Both the position numbers and the translations under genes were made by a program. Of a DNA stretch of 64,000 bases, positions 46,530 to 58,820 are shown piece after piece (the first letter of the stretch is position 1; every line of letters begins with the position of its first letter). The notes under the pieces are model-generated. The model was not told the DNA's origin. It ran no database searches and saw only the letters and a list, made by a program, of their open reading frames with translations. Origin of the DNA: Psychroserpens sp. Hel_I_66. Lineage in GTDB: Bacteria; Bacteroidota; Bacteroidia; Flavobacteriales; Flavobacteriaceae. The stretch is taken from NCBI RefSeq assembly GCF_000799465.1, contig NZ_JUGU01000001.1, positions 2,252,501 through 2,316,500 on the forward strand. The letters are read 5' to 3'.

Positions 46530-47864
46530 TTATATCGTTCTATCCACATCAAATTGTTCAAAATAATCGGCTACGCGTCGTACAAAACTTCCGCCTAAAA
46601 ATCCGTCAACCACTCTATGGTCAAAGGATAGCGATAAATACATCATACTTCTAATAGCAATTTCGTCTCCTTTTTCGGTTTCTATAACTTCAGGTCTTTT
46701 TTTAATAATACCCAATGCTAGAATTGCAACTTCAGGTTGGTTAATGATTGGTGTTCCCATTACACTTCCAAAGGTTCCAACATTAGAGATTGTAAACGTA
46801 CTTCCTTTAATATCATCACCTGCCAACTTGTTTTCTCTTGCTTTACCTGCTAGTTCGCTAACATTCTCTGCAAGTGTTTTTAAATCTTTGGTATCTGCAT
46901 TTTTTACCACAGGTACAATTAGGTTTCCACTTGGCAATGCTGTTGCCATACCAATATTTATGTCTTCTTTTACAATAATTTTATTACCATCTACAGAGGC
47001 GTTTATGTTTGGAAAATCCTTAACAGCTTTTGCCACAGCCTCAACAAATAACGGTGTAAAGGTTAAACGCTCACCATATTTTTCTTGAAATGCTTTTTTG
47101 TTTGCATTTCTCCAATTCACCATATTCGTCATATCGGCTTCTACATAAGCTGTGACGTGAGGTGATGTGTGCTTGGAATACACCATGTGATCTGCAATCA
47201 TTTGGCGCATTCTATCCATTTCTATGACTTTTCCTTTGCCTTTATCGAAAGTCAATTGCGGAATGCGATAAGCTGTTGGATCTTGCGTTACAGGTTGTGC
47301 AAATTTGTACGGACGACCATCTTCTATATATTGAAATACATCACTTTTACGCAATCTGCCCTCATTTCCTGTTGCAGGAATTCTAGATAATTCTTCAAAA
47401 CTGATGTGATGTGATTTTGCAATTTCAATTATTAAAGGTGAAAAAAACGTGTTTGTATTGTTGACTGAAAACGACGTTGAAGCTAAAGGTTGTTGAACCG
47501 GTTTTGGTTTGTTTGAAACTTTAGTTTTCTTTTGGGATGTATCGACTGCGCTCGATTTAACTGTTTCTTTCTTTTTTTCTTCGGAATTTATTTCTTCTGA
47601 AACTTCTAAAATAGCGAGCACCTCTCCAACAGCAACAACATCTTTTGCCTGATGTTTTATGGTTTTCATGGTTCCCGATGCTGGTGCAGGCACTTCATTA
47701 TCGACTTTATCGGTTGCCACTTCGAGGATGATATCGCCTTCTTCAAAGCTATCACCTTCATTTACCAACCAATTGATTATGGTTCCCTCTGTTATGCTTT
47801 CGCCCATCTTGGGCATTTTTAATTCATAACTTCCTGCGAAGGCAGGAATCTCTTTATTTTTCAT
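46530..47864 (-). CDS. 2-oxo-acid dehydrogenase E2 (dihydrolipoyl acyltransferase)
   Basis: 444 residues: lipoyl domain (about 13-90, lipoyl Lys53 in VATDKVDNEVPA), Ser/Thr/Lys-rich linker, E1/E3-binding domain (about 142-180, SPLIIEIAKSHHISFEELSRIPATG) and acyltransferase core with SFDHRVVDG (His). It moves acyl groups from E1 to CoA. The N-terminus is odd: residues 6-12 (IPAFAGS) are encoded by a palindromic repeat copy (47831-47852), and the start overlaps the GIY-YIG gene stop by 11 bp. The lipoyl fold starts at ELKMPKMGES, so the extra residues are probably a recent addition. Confidence 0.93.
   Translation of the reverse strand: MKNKEIPAFAGSYELKMPKMGESITEGTIINWLVNEGDSFEEGDIILEVATDKVDNEVPAPASGTMKTIKHQAKDVVAVGEVLAILEVSEEINSEEKKKETVKSSAVDTSQKKTKVSNKPKPVQQPLASTSFSVNNTNTFFSPLIIEIAKSHHISFEELSRIPATGNEGRLRKSDVFQYIEDGRPYKFAQPVTQDPTAYRIPQLTFDKGKGKVIEMDRMRQMIADHMVYSKHTSPHVTAYVEADMTNMVNWRNANKKAFQEKYGERLTFTPLFVEAVAKAVKDFPNINASVDGNKIIVKEDINIGMATALPSGNLIVPVVKNADTKDLKTLAENVSELAGKARENKLAGDDIKGSTFTISNVGTFGSVMGTPIINQPEVAILALGIIKKRPEVIETEKGDEIAIRSMMYLSLSFDHRVVDGFLGGSFVRRVADYFEQFDVDRTI
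47831..47852. repeat. Palindromic repeat, left border of GIY-YIG cassette 1
   Basis: TTCCTGCGAAGGCAGGAATC plus TC; a stem-loop in itself (TTCCTGC / GCAGGAA). It matches the reverse complement of 48188-48209 at 21 of 22 positions. It lies in the 5' coding end of the E2 gene. Confidence 0.85.
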
Positions 47865-48174
47865 TTCGATTTTTATTATAATCTAAATTCCAATTCATAC
47901 TTAAGTCCATCCAGCTTGGGTTCATTTCTTTAATGAGTTCAATTTTCCAATCTCGTTTCCATTTTTTGAATTGTCGTTCTCTAATATTTGCTAATTTGCC
48001 ATCATCAAAATCTTCAAAATAAACTAGCTTATTACAGTTATATTTAGCTGTAAATGATGTTGGACGAATTTTTAATTTATGTTCCTTAACTCTTTCTTCA
48101 ATATTATCAGTAATTCCAATGTAAATTACTCCATTAGGTTTATTTGTCATGATATACACATACCATTGACTCAT
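47854..48174 (-). CDS. Small GIY-YIG endonuclease, cassette 1
   Basis: 106 residues of a single GIY-YIG domain. Visible marks: WYVYIMTNKPNGVIYIGITD (GIY-YIG pair), the Arg in NIEERVKEHK, NKLVYFEDF with the Glu, and a C-terminal QFKKWKRDWKIELI plus NPSWMDL. This is the UPF0213/YhbQ-like type that has no added DNA-binding domain. The start overlaps the paaY stop by 4 bp (ATGA) and the stop overlaps the E2 start by 11 bp, so it is fully knitted into the operon. It is bracketed by the inverted repeats 47831-47852 and 48188-48209. It is about half identical by eye to the copy at 49595-49882. Confidence 0.92.
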   Translation of the reverse strand: MSQWYVYIMTNKPNGVIYIGITDNIEERVKEHKLKIRPTSFTAKYNCNKLVYFEDFDDGKLANIRERQFKKWKRDWKIELIKEMNPSWMDLSMNWNLDYNKNRNEK

Positions 48175-48794
48175 GACTTTTTACTATGAGATTCCTGCCT
48201 GCGCAGGAAATGTTCCCGAAGTGTCTTATAAACATCTTCTTGTATTTTCATATGTTGTGGCACTTCTCTCAACGGTTCAACTTCAATCAAACTCTCGTGG
48301 CAATCTGCTGGCAATTGCTGATATAATTGCGTGCCTTTAGTTTTCCAAGCAATCATGTCATCACTTACTTGTTTAATGACTTTTGCTGGATTACCAACTA
48401 CTAAACTTCGCTTGGGTATTTTAGTTTCAGCTTTTACAAAAGACATCGCACCTATTATGCTTTCGTCTCCAATTTCAGCATCGTCCATGATTACGGTATT
48501 CATCCCGATGAGACAATTTCGACCTAAATTAGCACCATGAATTATGGCTCCGTGACCAACATGTGCACTTTCCTTTAGAGTAATAGATTTTCCTGGAAAC
48601 ATGTGAACTGTACAGTTTTCTTGAACGTTTACGCCATCTTCCAAAATAATTTGTCCCCAATCGCCACGAATAGCTGCTCCTGGACCTATGTAACAGTTTT
48701 TACCAATAATGACATTTCCTGTTACCGCTGCCAAAGGATGCACGAAACTTGATTCGTGAACGACTGGTGTGTAACCCTTGAAACTGTAGATCAT
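48171..48794 (-). CDS. paaY: PaaY-like hexapeptide-repeat thioesterase/transferase
   Basis: 207 residues. Left-handed beta-helix with hexapeptide repeats (VIIGKNCYIGPGAAIRGDWG, VGHGAIIHGANLGRNCLIGMNTVIMDDAEIG), the gamma-carbonic-anhydrase-like fold of PaaY. PaaY is a CoA thioesterase proposed to relieve dead-end CoA adducts of phenylacetate breakdown. The last residues (FLRRQESHSKKS) come from a palindromic repeat copy (48188-48209) that has become coding; the usual family end would be near MKIQEDVYKTLREHF. It is between the hydratase and GIY-YIG genes. Confidence 0.85.
   Translation of the reverse strand: MIYSFKGYTPVVHESSFVHPLAAVTGNVIIGKNCYIGPGAAIRGDWGQIILEDGVNVQENCTVHMFPGKSITLKESAHVGHGAIIHGANLGRNCLIGMNTVIMDDAEIGDESIIGAMSFVKAETKIPKRSLVVGNPAKVIKQVSDDMIAWKTKGTQLYQQLPADCHESLIEVEPLREVPQHMKIQEDVYKTLREHFLRRQESHSKKS
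48188..48209. repeat. Palindromic repeat, right border of GIY-YIG cassette 1
   Basis: GAGATTCCTGCCTGCGCAGG plus AA; a hairpin with arms TTCCTGC / GCAGGAA. It is in inverted orientation to 47831-47852 and encodes the PaaY C-terminus. Confidence 0.85.
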
Positions 48795-48795
48795 T

Positions 48796-49551
48796 TTATT
48801 TAAATCCTTTTAGTTTTTCTTTTGTAAATTCGGAAAGCACTAAACGTCCACTGGTTTCTGCTCGTTCTGCTAGCAAATTATCCCAATCGTCTGTTCCTTT
48901 CCAGAATACTTTTTTCATTTCTAACATGGCCTCTGTATTGTATGTACAAAGGTGCTCTGCAGTTGTTTTCACAGCTTCGTCCAATTCTTCTGTTGATTCG
49001 TAAACTTGGGTAAACAACCCTTTCTGTTGTGCCCATTCTGGCGGATAAAATGAATTAGCATCAATAGCAATTTGTGACATTGCGCTTAATCCCATTTTTC
49101 GTTCTATTGCTGGTCCAACTACAAATGGTCCAATCCCAATATTTAATTCGCTTAATTTGATAGCTGCGTATTTTGTAGCCATACAATAGTCTGTTGCTGC
49201 TGCCAAACCTACACCACCTCCAACGGTTTTTCCTTGAATTCTCCCGATAATAAACTTTGGACATTTACGCATTGCATTGATCACATTAGCAAATCCTGAA
49301 AAGAAGACTTTACCTGTTGCTGCGTCATTGATATTGATCAATTCTTTAAAGCTCGCTCCAGCGCAAAATGTTCTATCTCCTCCACTTTTTAAAACAATCA
49401 CCTTTATCGCTTCGTTTTCTCCAGCTTCAGTTATGGTTTTCGCTAATTTAGCTAAAACGTCTCCTGGCAAAGAGTTGTGTGCTGGGTGGAAGAATTCTAT
49501 ATATCCTACTTCGTTTTCTATTGTTTGTTTAACGTATGGGTCTGTCATCAC
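48796..49551 (-). CDS. Enoyl-CoA hydratase/isomerase
   Basis: 251 residues, crotonase fold. Oxyanion and substrate residues appear in FCAGASFKELI and GRIQGKTVGGGVGLAAATDYCMA. Context places it in the beta-oxidation of phenylacetate as PaaF (2,3-dehydroadipyl-CoA hydratase), but family resemblance alone also allows a methylglutaconyl-CoA-like role. The first of the paired catalytic glutamates of hydratases is not in its usual place (GGVGLAAA), so isomerase or altered chemistry cannot be excluded. Adjacent to paaY (1 bp gap); a palindrome follows its start. Confidence 0.85.
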   Translation of the reverse strand: MMTDPYVKQTIENEVGYIEFFHPAHNSLPGDVLAKLAKTITEAGENEAIKVIVLKSGGDRTFCAGASFKELININDAATGKVFFSGFANVINAMRKCPKFIIGRIQGKTVGGGVGLAAATDYCMATKYAAIKLSELNIGIGPFVVGPAIERKMGLSAMSQIAIDANSFYPPEWAQQKGLFTQVYESTEELDEAVKTTAEHLCTYNTEAMLEMKKVFWKGTDDWDNLLAERAETSGRLVLSEFTKEKLKGFK

Positions 49552-49558
49552 GATAGTG

Positions 49559-49578
49559 TTCCCACGAAAGTGGGAATC
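49559..49578. repeat. Palindromic repeat, left border of GIY-YIG cassette 2
   Basis: TTCCCACGAAAGTGGGAATC, perfect TTCCCAC / GTGGGAA stem with GAAA loop. It lies just upstream (5') of the enoyl-CoA hydratase start and downstream of GIY-YIG gene 2. Confidence 0.85.
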
Positions 49579-49594
49579 TTTTTTTTATTGTTTA

Positions 49595-49882
49595 TTATAT
49601 TATTTTTTTATACAAATCCAACCATTCTGGATTTTGTTTTTCTATTAATTCCGTTTTCCAAGCTCTGTTCCATTTCTTCATTTGCTTTTCTTTTAATTTG
49701 GCTTCCTTTTCAGTTTCAAATCTTTCAAAATAAACTAGTTTATTCAAATTATATCTTGCTGAAAATGTGCTTGGATGTATTTTATTTTTATGCTGATATA
49801 TTCTTTTCTTTAAATTTCCTGTTTCTCCAATGTATAAAACGCCTTCTTTTTTATTTGTTATGATGTAGACGTTCCATTCCAT
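49595..49882 (-). CDS. Small GIY-YIG endonuclease, cassette 2
   Basis: 95 residues, a single GIY-YIG domain paralogous to the gene at 47854-48174: WNVYIITNKKEGVLYIGETG, the Arg in NLKKRIYQHK, YNLNKLVYFERF (Glu), and KQMKKWNRAWKTELI with NPEWLDL. Catalytic residues look intact in both copies. It is bordered by a perfect hairpin at 49559-49578 on one side and by the CACCCGA/TCGGGTG hairpin at 49907-49924 on the other; the two borders share a CCC-GAAA-GGG theme in inverted orientation. It sits between paaZ and the enoyl-CoA hydratase. Confidence 0.92.
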   Translation of the reverse strand: MEWNVYIITNKKEGVLYIGETGNLKKRIYQHKNKIHPSTFSARYNLNKLVYFERFETEKEAKLKEKQMKKWNRAWKTELIEKQNPEWLDLYKKII

Positions 49883-49906
49883 TTTTTTAAACTTTTATAT
49901 ACAAGA

Positions 49907-49924
49907 CACCCGATTTCTCGGGTG
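49907..49924. repeat. Palindromic repeat, right border of GIY-YIG cassette 2
   Basis: CACCCGATTTCTCGGGTG, stem CACCCGA / TCGGGTG with TTTC loop. It is immediately followed by the larger palindrome at 49925-49968. Confidence 0.8.
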
Positions 49925-49968
49925 CTTCGAACAATTCAATCTTTTATAAAAGACTGAATTGTTCGAAG
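49925..49968 (-). terminator. Near-perfect 44-bp palindrome spanning the paaZ stop
   Basis: The two 22-base halves match as reverse complements except at one position (arms CTTCGAACAATTCAATCTTT... / ...AAGACTGAATTGTTCGAAG). On the minus strand the upstream arm encodes the last residues of PaaZ (FEQFSLL) and the stop lies at its centre (49944-49946). It could act as a transcription pause or RNA-stabilising hairpin; without a T-run it is not a classical terminator. Confidence 0.55.
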
Positions 49969-52481
49969 TGATGATTCAAATGTTTGCGCTCCAATAAATA
50001 CGATTCATATTTATTCAATTCACCAAAGACTAAATTCTTCAACTTAGCGTCTGGATTTTCTTTAAAATACTCGATGTATTTTTCTCTTTGTGATTTAAAC
50101 TTTTCGATTGCGGTTGCTAAATCTGGATGTTTCAAATCATCTAATTTGTCTTTTTCTAACTGCGGAAATTGGCTGTTCTTCGGAAATTTGTCATAGTTAT
50201 ATAAACTCGCATGTACTTTTTCTAAAATCTTTTCCGGTGTGGCAATCTCAAAATCCTGAATCTCACCTGACGTAATTTTATAGGTATATTCCAAATGCTC
50301 AACCATGTGCTGTGGTGTCATAATTCCCCATTTTGGTTTCATGTCTTCGGAAAGTTTAGAAAGACATTCTTCAATCTTTTCCGAAGTTATTTCAGTAAAA
50401 ACCTCTTGCTTTTTTTGAACCATTGTTAAAATGGTTGCGACTGCCACTAACGGACTGTCTTTTTCAGTTTTATCTTTTTCTGGTTTATTTTCAAAATTAG
50501 CATCAAACACCTCAACGTACCATTTTACGATTCCGCTAGGATGTTCCGCAGAAGCGACATCACGATCTACTTTTTCTTTACAAGTTAAACGTACATAAAT
50601 GGTGTCGTTATGATATAACGGTCTTAAAAAACGAATACTATCCAGACCATAATTTGCAGCTACTGGACCTTTGTTTGGATACACGAATAATCCTGCTGCT
50701 GCAGAAATTATAAAATAACCGTGAGCAGTTCTTTTTTCGAAGATACTGCCATCCAAAGACGTAATATCTGTATGTGCATAAAAATGATCCCAAGTTAAAT
50801 TTGCAAAGTTGATAATGTCTGTATCTGTGAATGTACGGTTATGTGTTTTGAGGGACATTCCTGGTTGGATATCTTCCCAGTGGTATTTAAATGGATGCAT
50901 TTTTGCTTCCTTATATTTGGAATTTTGCTGATAAATTCCAGTGATTTCGGTAATTGTTGTTGGTGAACCTTGAATGGCTGTACGTTGCAAATAATGTTTA
51001 ATGCCTCGCATGCCTCCCATTTCTTCTCCTCCTCCTGCTCTTCCTGGACCACCATGCACTAAATATGGTAATGGCGAACCGTGACCTGTACTTTGTTTTG
51101 CGCTTTCTCTGTTGAGTACTAATATTCTCCCATGATGACTTGCTGCATTGATCACGTATTCTTTGGCAATCTTATCGTTATTTGTAGCAATTGAAGACAC
51201 TAAAGATCCTTTACCCATTTGAGCTAAGGTTATTGCTTCGTCTAAGTTTTTATATGGCATAATCGTACTTACTGGACCAAAAGCTTCACGTTCATGAATC
51301 ACTGCATTTTGGAATGGATGATCTGCTCGCAATAAAATCGGACTAATAAACGCGCCTTTTTTAGCATCTGCTCCAATGGTTTCGATTTTATCTAAACTTC
51401 CATAAACGATTTGCGCTTCTTTTGCTAAATCGTTGACAGAATCTCTAACTGCTTGTACCTGTTGTTGACTTACTAATGATCCCATTCGTACTTCTTTGAG
51501 TCTTGGATCACCAATGATGACTTTATCTAACGCTTTGCCTAAATGAATTTGAACATCTTCAACAAGATTTTCTGGTACTATAACTCTTCGGATTGCTGTA
51601 CATTTTTGTCCAGCTTTTACCGTCATCTCTTTTCTTACTTCTTTGATAAATAAGTCGAATTCTGGAGTTCCAGGAACTGCATCTTCTCCTAAAATTGATG
51701 CATTTAGTGAATCAGCTTCCATAGTAAATGGCACAGATTCTTGAATTAGTCTTGGATGTGCTTTTAATAAGCGTCCCGTTTTTGCTGAACCTGTAAACGT
51801 GACTACGTCTTGAGATTCGACTGTGTCCAAAATATTTTTTACTGTTCCATTTATGATTTGTAGTGCACCTTCAGGTAAAATACCCGAATCTATTATAGTT
51901 TTCGCTACAGCTTCTGCCAAATAAGAAGATGATGGTGCTGGTAAAACAACAGCAGGCACTCCAGCCATCCAGTTAACCGCACATTTTTCTAACATACCCC
52001 AAACTGGAAAGTTAAAAGCATTGATATGAACTGCAACACCTTTTTTTGGCACCATGATGTGATGCGCCATAAAGCGTCCGCCTCGAGATAAATCGATCGC
52101 ATCACCTTCTACATGATAGGGTTGGTTTGGAAATAATTTACGTAATGATGCGTTGGCGAATAAGTTACCGAAGCCACCTTCAATATCTATCCAACTGTCA
52201 ACTCTAGTTGCTCCTGTTCTATAGCTTAGATCGTAGAATGACTCTTTTCTTTTGGTGAGATATAATGCTAAACTTTTTAGCATATTTCCACGTTCTTGAA
52301 AGGTCATTTTACGAAGTTTTTCTCCTCCTTTTGTGCGACCGTAATTTAATATTTCTGGAATATCGAGACCTTCAATGGCAACGCTTGTAAAGGCTTCGCC
52401 TGTTACTGCATCAAGAATTGGTGAGCCTTCTTCTTTTCCTGTAGTCCAATTTCCTTGGACGTAGTGTTGGATTTTGTTCAT
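49944..52481 (-). CDS. paaZ: PaaZ bifunctional ring-cleavage enzyme with extra DinB/DUF1569-like domain
   Basis: 845 residues against about 680 for typical PaaZ. Aldehyde dehydrogenase part (about 1-510): general base Glu255 in TMEADSL, nucleophile Cys294 in GQKCTA, and HGGPGRAGGGEEMGGMRG. MaoC-like hydratase part (about 530-690): FTDTDIINFANLTWDHFYAHTD and FEKRTAHGYFIISAAAG. PaaZ opens the oxepin ring and oxidises the aldehyde product. The extra about 155 residues (692-845) carry PKWGIMTPQHMVEHLEY (His725, His729) and ERKHLNHHFEQF (His834, His837, His838), the pattern of DUF1569/DinB-like metal-binding bundles. No frame break separates it, so it is a real fusion. Confidence 0.9.
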   Translation of the reverse strand: MNKIQHYVQGNWTTGKEEGSPILDAVTGEAFTSVAIEGLDIPEILNYGRTKGGEKLRKMTFQERGNMLKSLALYLTKRKESFYDLSYRTGATRVDSWIDIEGGFGNLFANASLRKLFPNQPYHVEGDAIDLSRGGRFMAHHIMVPKKGVAVHINAFNFPVWGMLEKCAVNWMAGVPAVVLPAPSSSYLAEAVAKTIIDSGILPEGALQIINGTVKNILDTVESQDVVTFTGSAKTGRLLKAHPRLIQESVPFTMEADSLNASILGEDAVPGTPEFDLFIKEVRKEMTVKAGQKCTAIRRVIVPENLVEDVQIHLGKALDKVIIGDPRLKEVRMGSLVSQQQVQAVRDSVNDLAKEAQIVYGSLDKIETIGADAKKGAFISPILLRADHPFQNAVIHEREAFGPVSTIMPYKNLDEAITLAQMGKGSLVSSIATNNDKIAKEYVINAASHHGRILVLNRESAKQSTGHGSPLPYLVHGGPGRAGGGEEMGGMRGIKHYLQRTAIQGSPTTITEITGIYQQNSKYKEAKMHPFKYHWEDIQPGMSLKTHNRTFTDTDIINFANLTWDHFYAHTDITSLDGSIFEKRTAHGYFIISAAAGLFVYPNKGPVAANYGLDSIRFLRPLYHNDTIYVRLTCKEKVDRDVASAEHPSGIVKWYVEVFDANFENKPEKDKTEKDSPLVAVATILTMVQKKQEVFTEITSEKIEECLSKLSEDMKPKWGIMTPQHMVEHLEYTYKITSGEIQDFEIATPEKILEKVHASLYNYDKFPKNSQFPQLEKDKLDDLKHPDLATAIEKFKSQREKYIEYFKENPDAKLKNLVFGELNKYESYLLERKHLNHHFEQFSLL

Positions 52482-53898: not shown

Positions 53899-53912
53899 AA
53901 TTAATTAAATGG

Positions 53913-53933
53913 ATTCCGCATCAAGTGCGGAAT
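53913..53933. repeat. Palindromic repeat, GTCATTCC...GGAATC type
   Basis: ATTCCGCA-TCAAG-TGCGGAAT, perfect 8-bp arms, followed by GACAAA. It is in the gap between the zinc-peptidase gene and paaJ. Confidence 0.8.
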
Positions 53934-53949
53934 GACAAATTATTTTTTT

Positions 53950-54810
53950 TTAGTTCAAGAGTGCAGAAAAGGTATCTCCCTGTCTAATATCTCCACTGTT
54001 ATAACCTTTCATAAACCACTCTTTTCTTTGCTGGGATGTACCGTGTGTAAAGCTATCTGAATTCACGCTTCCTCTCGTACGTTTTTGAATAGCATCATCT
54101 CCAACTGCATTTGCAGCACTTAGTGCTTCATCAATATCTCCAGCCTCTAGATATTGTTTGTTATAGTGTGCCCAAAGTCCAGCATAAAAATCGGCTTGTA
54201 ACTCTTGCGCGACAGATAATCTATTTGCCTCGGTTGTACTCGCTTGAGATTGTAATTGTCTTACTTTTGATGACGTCCCTAAAAGTGTTTGGATATGATG
54301 CCCTACTTCATGAGCAGTCACATAAGCAATTGCAAAATCCCCTCCCTTTGCACCGAAACGTGTTTTTAATTCGTCAAAAAAAGCTAAATCCATATATAGC
54401 TTTTGATCTGCTGGGCAATAAAATGGTCCTGAAGCTGAGCTTGCGTTTCCGCAGCCTGTTGATACCGCGTCTGTAAAAAGTACCATTTTTGGTTCTTTAT
54501 AAGTACCTAAATTGTTTTCTCTGAATACTTGACTCCAGGTATCTTCCGTATAAGCTAAAATGGTTGACATGAAGTCTCCCATTTTTTGTTCTTCACTGGT
54601 TAATTCTCTTTGTTCGACTTGCTGGGAACTTTGGCTATTTCCAACTTGTTCTATCAAAGGTGCCAATTGTTGCCCTGTTTCACCTCCAAAAAGTTGAAGC
54701 AAAATTACAATTACTGCCACTACTCCTCCTCCAGCAACAAGTTTGCCTTTACTGCCCATACCGCGTCTATCTTCCAGATTTCCGCTTTTTCTATTACCTT
54801 GCCATTTCAT
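53950..54810 (-). CDS. Neutral zinc metallopeptidase, YpfJ family
   Basis: 286 residues. One membrane segment (about 23-43, GGGVVAVIVILLQLFGG), then a periplasmic peptidase domain with the HExxH motif in YVTAHEVGHHIQTLLG, an added Glu region and NYxxxxCGNASSASGPFYCPADQ. It is the YpfJ/PF04228 'predicted metalloprotease' type. It sits inside the phenylacetate cluster between paaI and paaJ, with no evident role in the pathway; it may be carried along in the operon. Starts 26 bp downstream of the paaI stop. Confidence 0.93.
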   Translation of the reverse strand: MKWQGNRKSGNLEDRRGMGSKGKLVAGGGVVAVIVILLQLFGGETGQQLAPLIEQVGNSQSSQQVEQRELTSEEQKMGDFMSTILAYTEDTWSQVFRENNLGTYKEPKMVLFTDAVSTGCGNASSASGPFYCPADQKLYMDLAFFDELKTRFGAKGGDFAIAYVTAHEVGHHIQTLLGTSSKVRQLQSQASTTEANRLSVAQELQADFYAGLWAHYNKQYLEAGDIDEALSAANAVGDDAIQKRTRGSVNSDSFTHGTSQQRKEWFMKGYNSGDIRQGDTFSALLN

Positions 54811-54836
54811 TTTTTAATATTATTTCTAGTTAGTTG

Positions 54837-55247
54837 TTAATTGTTTTCCCATGTTTTTTGAGTTCTATAAACTACACCTTTAAAAAGCGCTACTAATTCA
54901 TTTCCTCGTTTAACTTCAATGATATTAAAGCCTAATTTATTATTTACTTTTTCAATTACCGATTCTGCAACCAAATAATCACCTTCATCTAAGGCTTCGA
55001 TATGATTGATACTTGTTTCAATAGAGACTGCATATTTACCGTGTGTGTTTGCTGCAAAACCAAAAGCGGTATCTGCAAGAGAATAACTAATACCACCATG
55101 TGCTTTGTTCATACTGTTTAGCATTTCCTTTCTGATGGTCATTGCCAATTTGCATCTGCCTATTTCACATTCTAAGATCTCAATACCTAACCATTGGCTG
55201 TAAGCATCTTGACTTAGCATTTTATATGGAATTTGTTCTCCTTTCAT
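54837..55247 (-). CDS. paaI: Hotdog-fold acyl-CoA thioesterase PaaI
   Basis: 136 residues. Hotdog domain: MLNSMNKAHGGISYSLADTAFGFAANTHG contains the conserved His-Gly-Gly and the acidic residue of PaaI thioesterases. PaaI hydrolyses ring-hydroxylated phenylacetyl-CoA and is thought to stop toxic CoA esters building up. It is in the typical position beside paaH. The first in-frame ATG is at 55247; an internal start at MLSQDAYSQWLG would also fit the family. Confidence 0.9.
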   Translation of the reverse strand: MKGEQIPYKMLSQDAYSQWLGIEILECEIGRCKLAMTIRKEMLNSMNKAHGGISYSLADTAFGFAANTHGKYAVSIETSINHIEALDEGDYLVAESVIEKVNNKLGFNIIEVKRGNELVALFKGVVYRTQKTWENN

Positions 55248-55283
55248 ATTACTATTCCAATAAAGTGGAAATCAATTATTTTG

Positions 55284-55320
55284 ATAATGTCATACTGAAA
55301 TAAGTTCAGTATGACATTAT
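55284..55320. repeat. Perfect 16-bp stem palindrome between paaI and paaH
   Basis: ATAATGTCATACTGAA / TTCAGTATGACATTAT arms with ATAAG loop. It contains ATACTGAA...TTCAGTATGAC, a variant of the GTCATTC...GAATC repeat, extended by four bases on each side. Confidence 0.85.
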
Positions 55321-55322
55321 AT

Positions 55323-56501
55323 TTAATTAAAAAACGTTTTATTTTCTCTGTTCATTTTACGCAATAAGGGGCTGCAACGGTATCTATCTTCGTGATATTC
55401 ATTATATAATTCGTCCATTTTATTTACGCACCAGTCTATTCCTTTTTCGTCTGCCCAAGCCAATAGTCCTTTTGGATAGTTTACGCCTTTTGTCATCGCA
55501 TTATCAATATCCTCAGCTGATGCGATATTTAAAAATAAAGCATCTGCAGCTTCATTGATTAGCATTGCTATAACCCGATCAAAAATTTGTTGTCCGATTT
55601 TATCTTTTTGTGATTCTGAAATCAGTTTAGAATGACTTTGAATGATATTTCCATTTTCATCATAATCATAATAGCCTTTTCCTGTTTTTCTTCCGAAGTA
55701 ACCCGCTTCAGCAAATCGTTTTTGAGTAAATGCTGGTCTATATCTTGGATCAAAATAAAATGCGGTAAACACCGTTTCTGTTACCGTATAATTGACATCA
55801 TTCCCTATAAAATCCATAAGTTCAAACGGTCCCATTCTAAAACCACCAATGGTTTTCAATGCACTATCTATGGTCTTAAAATCTGCAATTCCTTCTTCGT
55901 AAATTCGTAATGATTCTCCATAAAACGGTCTTGCCACTCTATTGACTATAAAACCTGGTGTGTCTTTAGCGACAGCAACCGTTTTTTTCCAATCTTGAAT
56001 TGTTTGGATTGATTTCTCTAAAACTTCTTTTGAGGTTTGTATCGCAGGAATCACCTCAACCAGCTTCATTAAAGGTGCTGGATTAAAAAAGTGAATCCCA
56101 ATACAACGTTCTGGTTTTCGTAAAGATGACGCAATGGATGCAATTGATAAACTTGACGTGTTTGAAGCGATGATACAATCGTTTGCTACATAACTTTCTA
56201 ATTCTGAAAATACTTTTTTCTTGATGTCTAGGTTTTCAATAATTGCTTCGATAGTTAAATTTGAATCTGCTAAATCCTTTAAATTATCAACATAAGAGAT
56301 GTTGGATTGGATTCTATTTTTTTCTTCGGAATCAATCCGTCCTTTTTCAATTAAACGCGATAGAATTTTTTCTAAAGCAGCTTTAGCTTTATCCAACGCA
56401 TTTTGATTAGTGTCGTATAATTTCACCTTACAATCAGCAGTAGCTGCAACTTGTGCAATACCACTTCCCATTGTTCCTCCTCCTATGATTCCTACATTCA
56501 T
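55323..56501 (-). CDS. paaH: 3-hydroxyacyl-CoA dehydrogenase PaaH
   Basis: 392 residues. NAD-binding Rossmann domain (about 1-185): GIIGGGTMGSGIAQ and the SNTSSLSIASIAS active-site region, with HFFNPAPLMKLVEVI (catalytic His). Two C-terminal 3HCDH domains (about 186-285 and 300-390). It oxidises 3-hydroxyadipyl-CoA. E. coli PaaH is about 475 residues; this shorter form still has both C-terminal domains, as in many flavobacterial members. A palindromic repeat precedes its start. Confidence 0.92.
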   Translation of the reverse strand: MNVGIIGGGTMGSGIAQVAATADCKVKLYDTNQNALDKAKAALEKILSRLIEKGRIDSEEKNRIQSNISYVDNLKDLADSNLTIEAIIENLDIKKKVFSELESYVANDCIIASNTSSLSIASIASSLRKPERCIGIHFFNPAPLMKLVEVIPAIQTSKEVLEKSIQTIQDWKKTVAVAKDTPGFIVNRVARPFYGESLRIYEEGIADFKTIDSALKTIGGFRMGPFELMDFIGNDVNYTVTETVFTAFYFDPRYRPAFTQKRFAEAGYFGRKTGKGYYDYDENGNIIQSHSKLISESQKDKIGQQIFDRVIAMLINEAADALFLNIASAEDIDNAMTKGVNYPKGLLAWADEKGIDWCVNKMDELYNEYHEDRYRCSPLLRKMNRENKTFFN

Positions 56502-56520
56502 ATGTTTACTTTTTGATGAA

Positions 56521-56541
56521 ATCCTGAAACGATTTCAGGAT
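56521..56541. repeat. Palindromic repeat between paaG and paaH
   Basis: ATCCTGAAA-CGA-TTTCAGGAT, perfect 9-bp arms, followed by GACAA. Same type as the other paa-cluster repeats. Confidence 0.85.
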
Positions 56542-56551
56542 GACAACTTTA

Positions 56552-57334
56552 TTATCTTCCTTTAAATTCTGGCTTACGTTTTCCTATAAATGCTGCAACA
56601 CCTTCTTGATAATCTACACTTTGCGCTGCTTGAATTTGTAATTTAGATTCTAGAGCGAGTTGATCTTCCAAAGTATTTGTCATAGACTTATTGTATAATT
56701 CCTTAATCATGCCCAAAGCCTTAGTTGGCATATTTGCTAATTTTAATGCGAGATTTTCTATCGTGTTTTCAAATTCTTCCGAAGAAACACATTTATAGAT
56801 CATTCCCATTTTTTCTGCCTCTTCTGCGGAAATTTTATCCCCCAACATCGCTAATGCCAATGCTTTTTGAAACCCTATTAATCTTGGCAAAAAGAAGGTC
56901 CCACCACTATCTGGAACCAAACCGATTAAACTGAACGCTTGTATAAAACTAACTTTTTCGTGAGCCACAACTATATCGCAAGCCAATGCAATATTTGCTC
57001 CTGCTCCCGCTGCTACACCATTTACTGCTGCTATGACTGGTTTTTTTATATCACGTAATCTTGTAATTACTGGATTGTAATGCTCATCCAATATTTTTTT
57101 GAATCCGGGATTCAAGTCTGGATCGGTAACTTCTTTTAAATCTTGACCAGCACAAAATGCTTTTCCGTTACCGATTAGTACAATTGCTCTAACCTCTTGA
57201 TTTTTCTCGCATGTATCTAAAGTATCCTGAAGTAAAAATGCCATTTCGCGATTAAAACTATTGAATACTTCTGGCCTATTTAGCGTTATTGTTGCTACTT
57301 TGTTTTCTATTTTTAGCTGGATGCTTTTACTCAT
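56552..57334 (-). CDS. paaG: PaaG ring-epoxide isomerase (crotonase fold)
   Basis: 260 residues. Crotonase marks: FNRPEVFNSFNREMAF-like start (NRPEVFNSFNREM), NGKAFCAGQDLKEV, GVAAGAGANIALACD and SFIQAFSLIGLVPDSGGTFFLPRLIG. PaaG isomerises the 1,2-epoxyphenylacetyl-CoA to the oxepin-CoA and also acts as a later isomerase. Its place beside paaH and paaD supports the call. Confidence 0.92.
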   Translation of the reverse strand: MSKSIQLKIENKVATITLNRPEVFNSFNREMAFLLQDTLDTCEKNQEVRAIVLIGNGKAFCAGQDLKEVTDPDLNPGFKKILDEHYNPVITRLRDIKKPVIAAVNGVAAGAGANIALACDIVVAHEKVSFIQAFSLIGLVPDSGGTFFLPRLIGFQKALALAMLGDKISAEEAEKMGMIYKCVSSEEFENTIENLALKLANMPTKALGMIKELYNKSMTNTLEDQLALESKLQIQAAQSVDYQEGVAAFIGKRKPEFKGR

Positions 57335-57352
57335 ATTTTTCTTTTATTGTGG

Positions 57353-57372
57353 ATTCCTACCTTCGCAGGAAT
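57353..57372. repeat. Palindromic repeat between paaD and paaG
   Basis: ATTCCTACCTTCGCAGGAAT followed by GACAAA. One A-C mismatch in the stem. Confidence 0.8.
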
Positions 57373-57378
57373 GACAAA

Positions 57379-57876
57379 TTATTTTAAACATTTAAAATAA
57401 TCAAATGGCTCTTGGCAATCGTCACACTGAAATTGTGCCTTACAAGCTGTTGAACCAAACTGACTGACTAATCTTGTATTTGTGGAACCACAATTGGTGC
57501 ATTTCACTATTCGCTTCCCGTTAAGCAATACATCTTTGTCAGCTTCAGCATTTAGGGGTGCTGCTATTCCATAATCTTCTAATGCTTTTCTGCCTCTTGG
57601 TGTAATCCAATCGGTTGTCCAAGCTGGGTGCAGAATCAATTCTATTTCAGATTCGTAACCTGCTATTTTTAATGCCTTTTTTATATCGTCTCCTATCACA
57701 TCCATTGCTGGACAACCACTGTAAGTTGGTGTGATTTCTACTTTTATGATATTATTTTCTATTACTGCAGAACGCACGATTCCCATATCCATTATTGAAA
57801 GCACAGGGATTTCTGGATCTGAGACTTTTTCCAAAATTGGAATTAAAGTTTCGTCTATGTTTTGTTCTGTTGTTGT
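57379..57876 (-). CDS. paaD: PaaD, Fe-S assembly-like subunit of the phenylacetate system
   Basis: 165 residues from ATG at 57876. An upstream TTG at 57906 is in frame, but those ten residues are encoded by a palindromic repeat. PaaD belongs to the DUF59/MIP18 group: DPEIPVLSIMDMGIVRS and TYSGCPAMDVIGDDI. The C-terminal zinc-ribbon-like region has CTNCGSTNTR and CDDCQEPF. It supports PaaABCE assembly or maturation, exact role not settled. Confidence 0.9.
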   Translation of the reverse strand, partial: TTTEQNIDETLIPILEKVSDPEIPVLSIMDMGIVRSAVIENNIIKVEITPTYSGCPAMDVIGDDIKKALKIAGYESEIELILHPAWTTDWITPRGRKALEDYGIAAPLNAEADKDVLLNGKRIVKCTNCGSTNTRLVSQFGSTACKAQFQCDDCQEPFDYFKCLK

Positions 57877-57894
57877 CATTTTTTGGTTTGTGTG

Positions 57895-57915
57895 ATTCTG
57901 AAACAAGTTCAGAAT
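57895..57915. repeat. Palindromic repeat before paaD start
   Basis: ATTCTGAA-ACAAG-TTCAGAAT, perfect arms, followed by GACGC. It overlaps the alternative upstream TTG of paaD. Confidence 0.8.
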
Positions 57916-57937
57916 GACGCTAATCTTTCTTTTTAAG

Positions 57938-57957
57938 ATTCCTGCCTGCGCAGGAAT
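57938..57957. repeat. Palindromic repeat after paaC
   Basis: ATTCCTGCCTGCGCAGGAAT, stem ATTCCTG.. / ..CAGGAAT, identical in core to 48190-48209. It lies three bases past the paaC stop on the minus strand. Confidence 0.85.
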
Positions 57958-57960
57958 TTG

Positions 57961-58716
57961 TTACCATTCCATATTTGGATAAGCACGCTGCATAAATTGT
58001 AGTTCGGTTAACAAATACCCAAAATGCTCTGTATGGATACCTTCTTTCCCTCCTTTTTGAAAATATTTTGATTCTGGAATTTCTAAAGTTGATGCCTCCA
58101 ATAGTTCATTTACATCTTTATAATAGCCATCTTTTAACTTTGTGACATCAACACCTATTCCTTCAGCAACCATTGCTTTATCCGCTTCGGTTTGAAGAAA
58201 TAATTCGTTTGTATATGTCCATAAGTTATTGATGGCTTCTTGCATTTTTACTTTACTTTCATCTGTACCATCGCCTAAACGCTTTACCCAATCTGAAGAG
58301 AATCTTTCATGATAACGCACTTCCTTAATGCATTTTTTAGCAATTGCAGATAATGTGAGATCTTTACTTTTTTCTAATTCTGAAAGAAATGCTAAGTGAT
58401 AGACATCGAATAAAAATTGTCGTCCGATCGTATAGGCGAAATCGGTATTTGGTTGCTCTACCAATAGCACATTTTTATAGTCACGTTCTTTACGAAGCAG
58501 AGCTATATCATCTTCCGTTCTTCCATCACCAGCAATTTTAGCAGCATATTGGAAGTAACTTCTTACTTGCCCGAATAAATCTAAAGATATATTAGTACAA
58601 GCGATATCGGTTTCTAAAGTTGGCCCATGACCGCAGAGCTCTCCCAAGCGCTGACCAAGGATTAAACTATTATCTGCGATACCGAGTATGTAATTGTATA
58701 AATTTTCGTTTTTCAT
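57961..58716 (-). CDS. paaC: PaaC, phenylacetyl-CoA monooxygenase structural subunit
   Basis: 251 residues, ferritin-like fold without a full metal centre. Typical segments: YILGIADNSLILGQRLGELCGHGPTLETDIA, ISLDLFGQVRSYFQYAA, NTDFAYTIGRQFLFDVYH, KCIKEVRYHERFSSDWVKRLGDG. PaaC pairs with PaaA to form the (alpha-beta)2 oxygenase core. Between paaD and paaB. Confidence 0.95.
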   Translation of the reverse strand: MKNENLYNYILGIADNSLILGQRLGELCGHGPTLETDIACTNISLDLFGQVRSYFQYAAKIAGDGRTEDDIALLRKERDYKNVLLVEQPNTDFAYTIGRQFLFDVYHLAFLSELEKSKDLTLSAIAKKCIKEVRYHERFSSDWVKRLGDGTDESKVKMQEAINNLWTYTNELFLQTEADKAMVAEGIGVDVTKLKDGYYKDVNELLEASTLEIPESKYFQKGGKEGIHTEHFGYLLTELQFMQRAYPNMEW

Positions 58717-58800
58717 ATTATAACCTTTCCGCCTTTAAGGCTTCTTTCCTCGAAAATAAAAGACATTATTAACGATTAAAATTTAGTTTGATTTTATGAG

Positions 58801-58820
58801 ATTCTTGCCTTCGCAGGAAT
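58801..58820. repeat. Palindromic repeat between paaB and paaC
   Basis: ATTCTTGCCTTCGCAGGAAT, one mismatch in the stem, immediately after the paaB stop codon. Confidence 0.75.

Follow-up and report, generated by a model that had tools for sequence, protein, structure and literature searches.

A gene for a single-domain GIY-YIG nuclease in Psychroserpens sp. Hel_I_66, lying in the 64,000-nucleotide stretch of DNA analyzed here (contig NZ_JUGU01000001.1, positions 2,252,501 to 2,316,500; hereafter the window), is bounded by two inverted palindromes that resemble repetitive extragenic palindromes (REPs), and we found related genes of many other bacteria beside such palindromes. The association of GIY-YIG gene and palindrome is near certain, and a class of REP-bounded GIY-YIG elements is present in Bacteroidota, in Pseudomonadota and, rarely, in Bacillota. 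Our best explanation, to which we give a probability of roughly 0.7, is a small element with REPs at its ends and an Slx1-like nuclease that works on the hairpins of that same element, in the way that REP-associated tyrosine transposases (RAYTs) do for REPs with a GTAG tag. On balance, and a step less firmly, we favor the wider proposal that standalone Slx1-like GIY-YIG nucleases are the missing mobilizing enzymes of the CGTC REP superfamily across phyla, a new class of mobile element in which REP doublets would be the non-autonomous members.

In a repeat search of positions 47600 to 48500, we found one inverted pair, 47831-47852 and 48188-48209, with arms of 22 nucleotides (nt) that are 95% complementary and lie 335 nt apart. 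The preliminary description of the window had placed the GIY-YIG gene between 22-bp sequences that are reverse complements at 21 of 22 positions, each a hairpin in itself, and the search bears this out, since both arms contain a perfect 7-bp stem with a 4-nt loop (TTCCTGC-GAAG-GCAGGAA at 47831-47848 and TTCCTGC-CTGC-GCAGGAA at 48192-48209). Along the coding strand, paaY is followed by one palindrome, the GIY-YIG gene, the other palindrome, and E2, and the whole palindrome-gene-palindrome unit measures 379 bp. The GIY-YIG open reading frame (ORF) overlaps the PaaY-like ORF by 4 bp and the E2 ORF by 11 bp, and the unit of about 380 bp overlapping both neighboring frames was thus correctly described. 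The features of the element and its neighbors are as follows.

46530..47864, minus strand: 2-oxoacid dehydrogenase E2 gene, with its start in the palindrome, MKNKEIPAFAGSYELKMPKMGES (from the ORF and a domain match)
47831..47852, plus strand: REP-like palindrome on the 3' side of the GIY-YIG gene, tail TCTC towards the gene, hairpin at 47831-47848; also codes for part of the E2 N-terminus
47854..48174, minus strand: single-domain Slx1-like GIY-YIG nuclease gene, 106 amino acids (aa) (PF01541, E 1.1e-17)
48188..48209, minus strand: REP-like palindrome on the 5' side of the GIY-YIG gene, inverted, tail TCTC towards the gene, hairpin at 48192-48209; also codes for part of the PaaY C-terminus
48171..48794, minus strand: paaY-like hexapeptide gene with a palindrome-encoded end, VYKTLREHFLRRQESHSKKS (from a TIGR02287 match and the C-termini of relatives)

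Both neighbors translate the palindromes, as KEIPAFAG in the E2 N-terminus, where the reading frame starts inside the palindrome, and as FLRRQES in the PaaY C-terminus. Many PaaY relatives without the insert end in VYKTLRDFMKK instead of the palindrome-encoded C-terminus; the top match of the PaaY-like ORF is TIGR02287 (PaaY), at 238 bits, under the cut-off of 320. An Rfam scan of positions 47700-50000 gave no match near the gathering score. In the 3.84-Mb genome, a single contig, the pattern TTCCTGCN4GCAGGAA was found at 40 places with at most one mismatch, compared to 0 for a reversed-pattern control, and inverted doublets occur at three loci (L330, L331, and L332), so that the palindrome is repeated across the genome with inverted dimers. 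The stems of the window pair are 7 bp with 4-nt loops, and other copies in the genome have 8-bp ATTCCTGC stems. The genome has six GIY-YIG matches, two of them of the short type, both in the window and 1.4 kb apart; the remaining four sit in open frames of 612, 455, 445, and 162 codons. The motif pair GTCATTCC/GGAATC that had been proposed for a search fits the two window copies in part, with GTCA absent on their outer side. At a spacing of 6, this pair had 5 matches in the window compared to 3.7 expected, a figure that leaves out the real arms, which are spaced 10 and so could not be hit.

The palindromes resemble the CGTC REP superfamily, in which an unpaired (C)GTC at one end is joined to an 8-9-bp stem starting with AT, a loop of 4-5, and a tail that is mostly CCA, and in which inverted dimers are frequent (Di Nocera, De Gregorio, Rocco 2013, PMC3733652). 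This superfamily takes in dRS3 of Neisseria and RPE-4/RPE-6 of Rickettsia, and its carriers include Azospirillum lipoferum, Sinorhizobium meliloti, Neisseria, and Novosphingobium aromaticivorans. According to part of this defining survey, these repeats "apparently lack a dedicated transposase," and the same part leaves open what moves them (PMC3733652).

The 106-aa protein consists of a GIY-YIG domain (PF01541, E 1.1e-17), so no HUH/Y1 transposase of the kind found between REPs in a REPtron occupies this place in the window. Among 11 relatives (alignment A1), Tyr7, Tyr18, Arg28, Glu66, and the motif F-T-A-x-Y-N are invariant or nearly so; we take the catalytic residues to be among these. In PMC1564403, lack of the C-terminal Asn that marks the UvrC lineage is a feature of Slx1-like proteins; Asn85 is invariant in alignment A1 and may or may not correspond to that residue. 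A standalone GIY-YIG domain with conserved catalytic residues is what characterizes Slx1-like and UPF0213 proteins, and by profile and fold the closest solved structures are UPF0213 protein BH0048 (1zg2) and Slx1 in complexes processing branched DNA. The AlphaFold model has a mean predicted local distance difference test score of 89.8, and its structural matches are weak, the top Foldseek hit having an E value of 2.6e-3 and none falling below 0.001. A structure-specific nuclease working on hairpins or cruciforms is plausible. In phage records, one Pseudomonadota GIY-YIG protein had no match at E 1e-12.

The association with palindromes was measured with a flank score, in which the 120 bp upstream of a gene are compared with the reverse complement of the 120 bp downstream, at a threshold of at least 14. 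The family sample comprised 79 loci from named genomes, 120 family genomes (57 with a match), and further stretches; genes of 85-140 aa were kept for the flank test and of 80-140 aa for the tagged-REP and stem tests, and identical proteins or flanks were collapsed before counting. Control ORFs of the flank test lay more than 200 bp from a GIY-YIG gene, and ORFs at 300 bp or less were dropped from the tagged-REP and Pseudomonadota tests. The resulting set, labeled Bacteroidota (up to L190, plus the window), includes L122, L126, and L127 from other phyla. In this mainly Bacteroidota set, 76 of 166 GIY-YIG genes reached the threshold, compared to 12 of 742 control ORFs from the same loci (odds ratio 51, p 1e-50) and 4 of 223 control ORFs within 200 bp of a GIY-YIG gene. 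When genes were grouped by either common neighbor, the 166 genes fell into 56 groups, 24 of which had a gene scoring at least 14. Inspection by eye of one flank pair per group found other stems in the same frame in many of the remaining groups (GTCATTGCGAG..., GTCATGCTGAAC..., GTCATCCTGAAC..., and GTCATTCCGCAC...). The common frame, found in most recognized palindromes, is GTC-[A..hairpin..T]-C, with the C side, or tail, towards the gene.

Searches in other phyla with the 11-member profile from alignment A1 gave matches in 58 of 249 genomes of Pseudomonadota (the phylum of L126, an alphaproteobacterium) and in 7 of 199 genomes of Bacillota (the phylum of an Oscillospiraceae bacterium). From 40 Pseudomonadota stretches of up to 20 kb and 30 loci, we obtained 66 genes, one of them without enough flank; of the other 65, 43 had a flank score of at least 14, compared to 2 of 465 control ORFs (odds ratio 452, p 2.7e-44). 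In both sets, inverted similarity of the flanks is thus far commoner for GIY-YIG genes than for other genes, and the refuting outcome named in the preliminary description did not arise. An inward tagged palindrome was present on at least one side of 32 of the 65 genes and 20 of the 465 control ORFs, and on both sides of 16 and 0, respectively. The density of inward tagged palindromes was 3.85/kb within 100 bp of the gene and 0.01-0.09/kb in 1-kb bins past 1 kb, and within 100 bp of the gene 50 REPs pointed inward and 17 outward. When the GTC tag was swapped for CTG, GAC, CAG, or TCG, the number of Pseudomonadota genes with any inward match was 0, 1, 0, and 2 of 65, respectively. In the Bacteroidota-labeled set, inward tagged REPs were found on both sides of 24 of 167 genes, compared to 1 of 679 control ORFs. 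In Bacillota, an inward REP was found beside 1 of 7 distinct genes, too small a sample to judge; L127 and L241 are one gene, which entered the counts as L127 in the Bacteroidota-labeled set.

Since REPs are mostly intergenic, as stated in part of the CGTC survey (PMC3733652), and abundant in some of these genomes, they might simply gather between genes, with small genes lying in REP-rich junctions and no functional link between the two. We give practically no credence to this account, as it does not fit the same-locus control ORFs, the decay of REP density with distance, the inward orientation, or the matched copies on the two sides of a gene described below; chance association of GIY-YIG genes with REPs was likewise rejected by the control ORFs.

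We also found that the stem sequence varies with the nuclease. In this test, a recognized inward REP had GTCA or ATTCC at the start of the stem. Across both sets, 244 distinct genes formed 92 neighborhood groups, and an inward REP was present in 129 genes and 48 groups; the nearest REP has GTC in 45 of the 48 group representatives, a count that is partly by construction, as the search required GTCA or ATTCC. With one gene per group, protein similarity and stem similarity were correlated (Mantel rho 0.29, p 0.0005, n 48), as they were within the Bacteroidota set (0.42, p 0.0005, n 21) and within the rest (0.28, p 0.015, n 27). Common ancestry of whole elements could yield this correlation, in which case gene and palindrome would have stayed together. 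Both REPs were recognized in 24 independent elements; in 21 of these, the left and right stems agree at 7 or more of 8 positions, compared to 22% between elements, so that in these 21 elements, as in the window, the inverted REPs on the two sides of the enzyme gene belong to one family.

A distant group of GIY-YIG genes, chosen as a negative control (20 genes in 19 stretches, L369-L387, three of the genes being of other types), has another flank motif. TCGAG/CTCGA, scored as present in each 120-bp flank with no palindrome required, occurred in both flanks of 14 of these 20 genes, compared to 1 of 166 in the window set and 7 of 742 controls. TTCCTGC/GCAGGAA was found in both flanks of 0 of 20, compared to 25 of 166 in the window set and 7 of 742 controls. 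The flank score was at least 14 in 8 of the 20 genes, and the strict tagged-REP rule found 0 of 20. Within the class of REP-bounded elements, the stem sequence tends to be nuclease-specific inside the common GTC-[A...hairpin...T]-C frame. The proteins of the distant group are mostly of the form VYYVYILKCSD...TYKRRP, and by eye their TCGAG/CTCGA often lies within longer palindromes.

GIY-YIG nucleases occur in selfish elements, among them homing nucleases and Penelope-like elements. A free-standing nuclease of the homing type might cut gene-less REPs or conserved gene ends and have its gene copied in by conversion via REP homology, the REPs being targets and not cargo. The GIY-YIG fold is that of homing nucleases, and at L077 and L097 the two REPs have stems of different types, which would fit a right REP that had been there before. 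The match between left and right REPs in 21 of 24 elements, with stems that differ between elements, speaks against such an account, because REPs then seem to travel with the gene, and so do the gene-free doublets of near-fixed length described below, some of which carry the end of a gene-bearing element. We regard this alternative as unlikely.

Genome-wide counts, which include the copies flanking GIY-YIG genes, also linked gene and REP. Within the family, TTCCTGCN4GCAGGAATC was present in at least 5 copies in 15 of 45 genomes with a close GIY-YIG relative, 1 of 12 with a weak relative only, and 3 of 63 with none (close relative versus none, Mann-Whitney p 2.5e-7; 120 genomes). In Pseudomonadota, a three-stem pattern reached at least 5 copies in 17 of 58 genomes with the gene compared to 17 of 191 without it (one-sided Mann-Whitney p 1e-4). 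This genome-wide link is real but loose.

One genome, G367, has a stem pattern that covers the REPs beside two of its GIY-YIG genes and matches 42 places. On its contig C1, 10 of 10 neighboring pairs within 200 bp are tail-inward, and one of these adjoins a GIY-YIG gene. Among the matches listed in the family, G367, and Pseudomonadota searches together, on contigs with several, 28 neighboring pairs within 200 bp are tail-inward, 2 tail-outward, and 10 in the same direction. Of nine gene-free doublets read in G367, seven are 105-106 bp long, with tails inward and differing spacers, and the other two are 138 and 80 bp. The spacers of four of the seven resemble the ends of a 402-bp gene-bearing element of the same genome (shuffle p ≤0.01, 500 shuffles), and three do not. 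The sequence GCTGGAGCCTCT, which forms the last GIY-YIG codons of the 402-bp element, is exact in doublets L320 and L325, has one change in L319, and is placed 21-22 nt from the right REP in doublets and gene-bearing element alike. Gene-free doublets are also present in the genome of the window (L330, L331, and L332). The gene-free doublets thus have the appearance expected of non-autonomous derivatives resembling REPINs, the paired REPs of REP-RAYT systems.

Comparison of insertion sites found loci without the element. In a survey of 30 paaY loci, with E2 located by protein comparison, E2 lies within the locus in 28, and among these the genome of the window is alone in having the GIY-YIG gene between the two; in the other 27, E2 is within about 240 bp of paaY in 24 and farther off, with no GIY-YIG gene, in 3. 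Of 22 same-genus relatives, 21 have E2 and lack a GIY-YIG gene between it and paaY; the stretch from the remaining relative is without E2. With 27 of 28 paaY-E2 loci lacking the gene, the arrangement is not constant; an ancient and constant one would have spoken against the cassette reading of the preliminary description. The same paaY-GIY-E2 arrangement recurs in other genera of the family (for example, at L059, L070, L086, L088, L101, and L108), and a GIY-YIG gene upstream of paaY was seen in some relatives (L293, L297, L299, L301, L308, and L311). The E2 N-termini of L297 (MSKEKGFPLSWELRMPK) and L301 encode a solitary REP or remnant, with no GIY-YIG gene there. In the genus of G367, both flanks of the element were found at 12 of 30 loci, G367 included, and not both at 18; eight of the junctions are at most 143 bp and hence without the 402-bp element, and three hold 244-455 bp of unassigned content.

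These sites bear on the possibility that the protein is a cellular Slx1-like nuclease for hairpins or cruciforms, the adjoining REPs being regulatory (at mRNA ends or in autoregulation) or hitchhiking and being moved by other enzymes. In general, REPs influence both the stability of mRNA and its translation, and an effect of REPs on translation is described in part of a 2025 survey (PMC12306157). Standalone prokaryotic GIY-YIG proteins are treated as Slx1-like, predicted repair enzymes in part of a 2006 phylogeny (PMC1564403). Such a role is hard to reconcile with the patchy presence of the gene (57 of 120 family genomes, 58 of 249 Pseudomonadota, 7 of 199 Bacillota), with up to 7 GIY-YIG matches in one genome (G044), with same-genus relatives that lack the gene at the paaY-E2 site, and with the pairing of stem and protein clade, and we think it quite improbable.

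The sequence changes at the insertion sites vary. At four loci, the element lies inside the 5' end of E2 with that end duplicated (about 33 columns at L059, 27 at L086, 49 at L097, and 47 at L108), while in the window, by eye, the paaY-E2 gap is replaced with no duplication of the E2 5' end. A direct duplication scoring at least 13 was found in 6 of 49 elements with both REPs recognized, most strongly at L106 and L217; L059, L097, and L108 are outside these six and outside the ten best of that scan, their duplications having come from a separate comparison. Duplication lengths differ, and the fixed-length target-site duplication of insertion sequences or miniature inverted-repeat transposable elements is not seen; nuclease cutting followed by repair would therefore fit better than a classical transposase. 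The homing-type account draws on some of the same sites, namely, the E2 duplications of about 27-49 bp at the four inserts, the clustering of right breakpoints at E2 while left ones vary (by eye), and the recurrence of the gene at few conserved junctions in many genera, the top three neighbor pairs holding 46, 31, and 10 of 166 genes. Upstream of and around position 6001 of L097, we observed tandem GIY-YIG genes with the E2 5' end and REP duplicated between them, and L131 (G087:C1:1184500-1196500) has four GIY-YIG matches in about 6 kb.

Under the reading of a REP-bounded mobile element, the nuclease would recognize its cognate palindrome when this is extruded as a hairpin or cruciform during replication or under supercoiling, and would nick or cut the hairpin base beside the tag. 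Cutting may release or copy segments bounded by two inverted palindromes. These would include the segment with the nuclease gene itself (379 bp in the window and, in G367, 402 and 455 bp) as well as doublets without a gene, roughly 65-140 bp long, and insertion would be finished by host repair. Insertion by host repair would lead to variable target changes, such as the duplications at some E2 inserts, the replaced gap in the window, and the majority of sites with none visible. Mobilization by the GIY-YIG enzyme would be the most likely explanation; the association, orientation, matched copies, covariation with protein clade, inward gene-free doublets, and syntenic gene-less sites are established computationally. 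From these we infer that the nuclease binds, cuts, and moves the palindromes. The earlier suggestion of a compact mobile or once-mobile cassette is supported by the gene-control and paaY-E2 comparisons, with movement by the enzyme as its conjectural part.

Several observations weigh against this reading. The window palindromes lack the GTC tag, their outer sequences being ...TTCATAAC and ...GGAACAT, so that neither copy has CGTC, TGTC, or CCTC outside the stem; the tag is mostly absent in the window's own group, although tagged copies exist elsewhere in its genome, where the search pattern starts with GTC. For any inward tagged REP, the Bacteroidota-labeled set separates less well (39 of 167 genes versus 44 of 679 control ORFs), the excess in control ORFs lying on the upstream side in 38 cases and the downstream side in 7. 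The raw counts are not independent, as the two largest neighborhood groups hold 49 and 32 of the 166 genes, many of them from Flavobacteriaceae. Among Pseudomonadota, 37 of 191 genomes with no GIY-YIG match carry REPs with the tested stems, 17 of them in at least 5 copies, and of the 58 that do have the gene, 34 lack all of those stems. The G367 stem pattern was unmatched in three other genomes searched, and 0 of 7 G367 spacers resemble the second, 455-bp element of that genome at p ≤0.01. No direct duplication scoring at least 13 was found in 43 of the 49 elements with both REPs recognized. Four of the 12 named replicons considered below have no REP by the rule (Photobacterium, Planktothrix, Rhizobium tumorigenes, and Sinorhizobium sp. 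C101, in the last of which the rule misread the gene end). Finally, the support is computational throughout.

Known carriers of CGTC REPs also have the gene. Named replicons with a short GIY-YIG match number 31, among them those of A. lipoferum, S. meliloti, Neisseria, and N. aromaticivorans, and of the 12 that were read, four have strict inward REPs on both sides within 120 bp, namely, A. lipoferum 4B (between sufB and sufC), Rhizobium sp. CIAT894, Shinella sp. WSC3-e, and Sphingobium sp. TomTYG46. An inverted pair lies beside the GIY-YIG gene on N. aromaticivorans pNL2 (by eye, score 29), an imperfect pair was found in S. meliloti (score 18), and one REP lies upstream of the gene in Aeromonas caviae. 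In Neisseria gonorrhoeae, one dRS3-like copy follows the GIY-YIG stop codon with its tail outward (by eye). The A. lipoferum 4B locus (L388, AZO_p3) again places the gene in the interior of an operon.

Further features of the window, one of them a second short GIY-YIG gene, are given here.

49559..49578, plus strand: TTCCCACGAAAGTGGGAATC, a REP-like palindrome with a different stem, tail towards the second GIY-YIG gene, on whose 3' side it lies (hairpin search)
49595..49882, minus strand: second short GIY-YIG gene, 95 aa, with an enoyl-CoA hydratase gene and a paaZ-like gene as neighbors (ORF and GIY-YIG match)
53912..53936, minus strand: REP with no GIY-YIG gene adjoining, GTCATTCCGCACTTGATGCGGAATC (genome 2306412-2306436)
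57352..57375, minus strand: REP with GTC tag, no GIY-YIG gene adjoining, GTCATTCCTGCGAAGGTAGGAATC (genome 2309852-2309875)
57894..57918, minus strand: REP with no GIY-YIG gene adjoining, GTCATTCTGAACTTGTTTCAGAATC (genome 2310394-2310418)
57939..57956, strand not assigned: REP hairpin with no GIY-YIG gene adjoining, TTCCTGCCTGCGCAGGAA (genome 2310439-2310456)
58802..58819, strand not assigned: REP hairpin with no GIY-YIG gene adjoining, one mismatch (genome 2311302-2311319)

The hairpin of the first of these (49559-49576, TTCCCACGAAAGTGGGAA) has the same frame with another stem and lies 18 bp past the end of the second GIY-YIG gene. The interval 53912-58819 thus holds at least five more REPs, of three stem families (TTCCGCAC, TTCTGAAC, and TTCCTGC), and a degenerate REP lies at 55612-55636. 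In other genomes, a GIY-YIG gene of another type directly follows tRNA-Val, with 82 aa in L385 (964 onward) and 81 aa in L205; in L385 this gene occurs twice in tandem, with a tRNA-end-like sequence repeated. L192 resembles both by eye, and ARAGORN finds no tRNA there. The L385/L205 type is possibly a tRNA-targeting GIY-YIG element.

We found no paper tying GIY-YIG proteins to REPs or dispersed palindromes, among the titles and starts of abstracts listed in searches that took in few subscription papers and no preprints, which makes this weak evidence of absence. The string "GIY" is absent from the text of PMC3733652 and "palindrom" from the main text of PMC1564403; the 2025 REP survey cites the CGTC paper and, in the part of its text covered here, mentions neither "rayt" nor "nuclease" (PMC12306157). 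The sole literature match of GTCATTCCCGCG is a Neisseria sequence in a methods section (PMC7593972). CGTC REPs, including Neisseria dRS3 and the Rickettsia palindromes, span several phyla, and an enzyme partner matched by clade makes the question of what moves them directly testable. If our reading is true, a large group of short genes whose annotation says no more than GIY-YIG nuclease would acquire a function, and the REP/RAYT way of life would have been reached a second time, by an unrelated enzyme.

Among known systems, the palindromes beside GIY-YIG genes share with CGTC REPs the GTC tag, the hairpin frame, and the inverted dimers. They differ from them in that no transposase has been reported for CGTC REPs, while a GIY-YIG gene is tied to the palindromes here, and in that the window pair has no GTC tag and 7-bp stems. 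Standalone Slx1-like and UPF0213 proteins (PDB 1zg2 and 1ywl; Slx1, 6seh) likewise have a single GIY-YIG domain of about 100 aa, but known descriptions present them as predicted repair enzymes. Homing GIY-YIG nucleases and GIY-YIG Penelope-like elements are similar in that a GIY-YIG nuclease is part of a selfish element, as set out in part of PMC1564403. In contrast to these, no intron or reverse transcriptase was seen at the loci read here, and the ends are short palindromes common to dispersed gene-free repeats. The likeness to REPs and RAYTs drawn in the preliminary description was apt and can be extended, given that the palindromes resemble a superfamily for which PMC3733652 names no enzyme. 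As in the REPtrons and REPINs of the REP-RAYT (TnpA_REP) system, an enzyme gene lies between inverted palindromes, and few enzyme copies are accompanied by more gene-free palindromes and doublets; REP-RAYT has an HUH/Y1 tyrosine transposase and a GTAG tag, whereas the elements here have a GIY-YIG nuclease and a GTC tag. We would therefore class the finding as a new counterpart of REP-RAYT, with an enzyme of a different kind.

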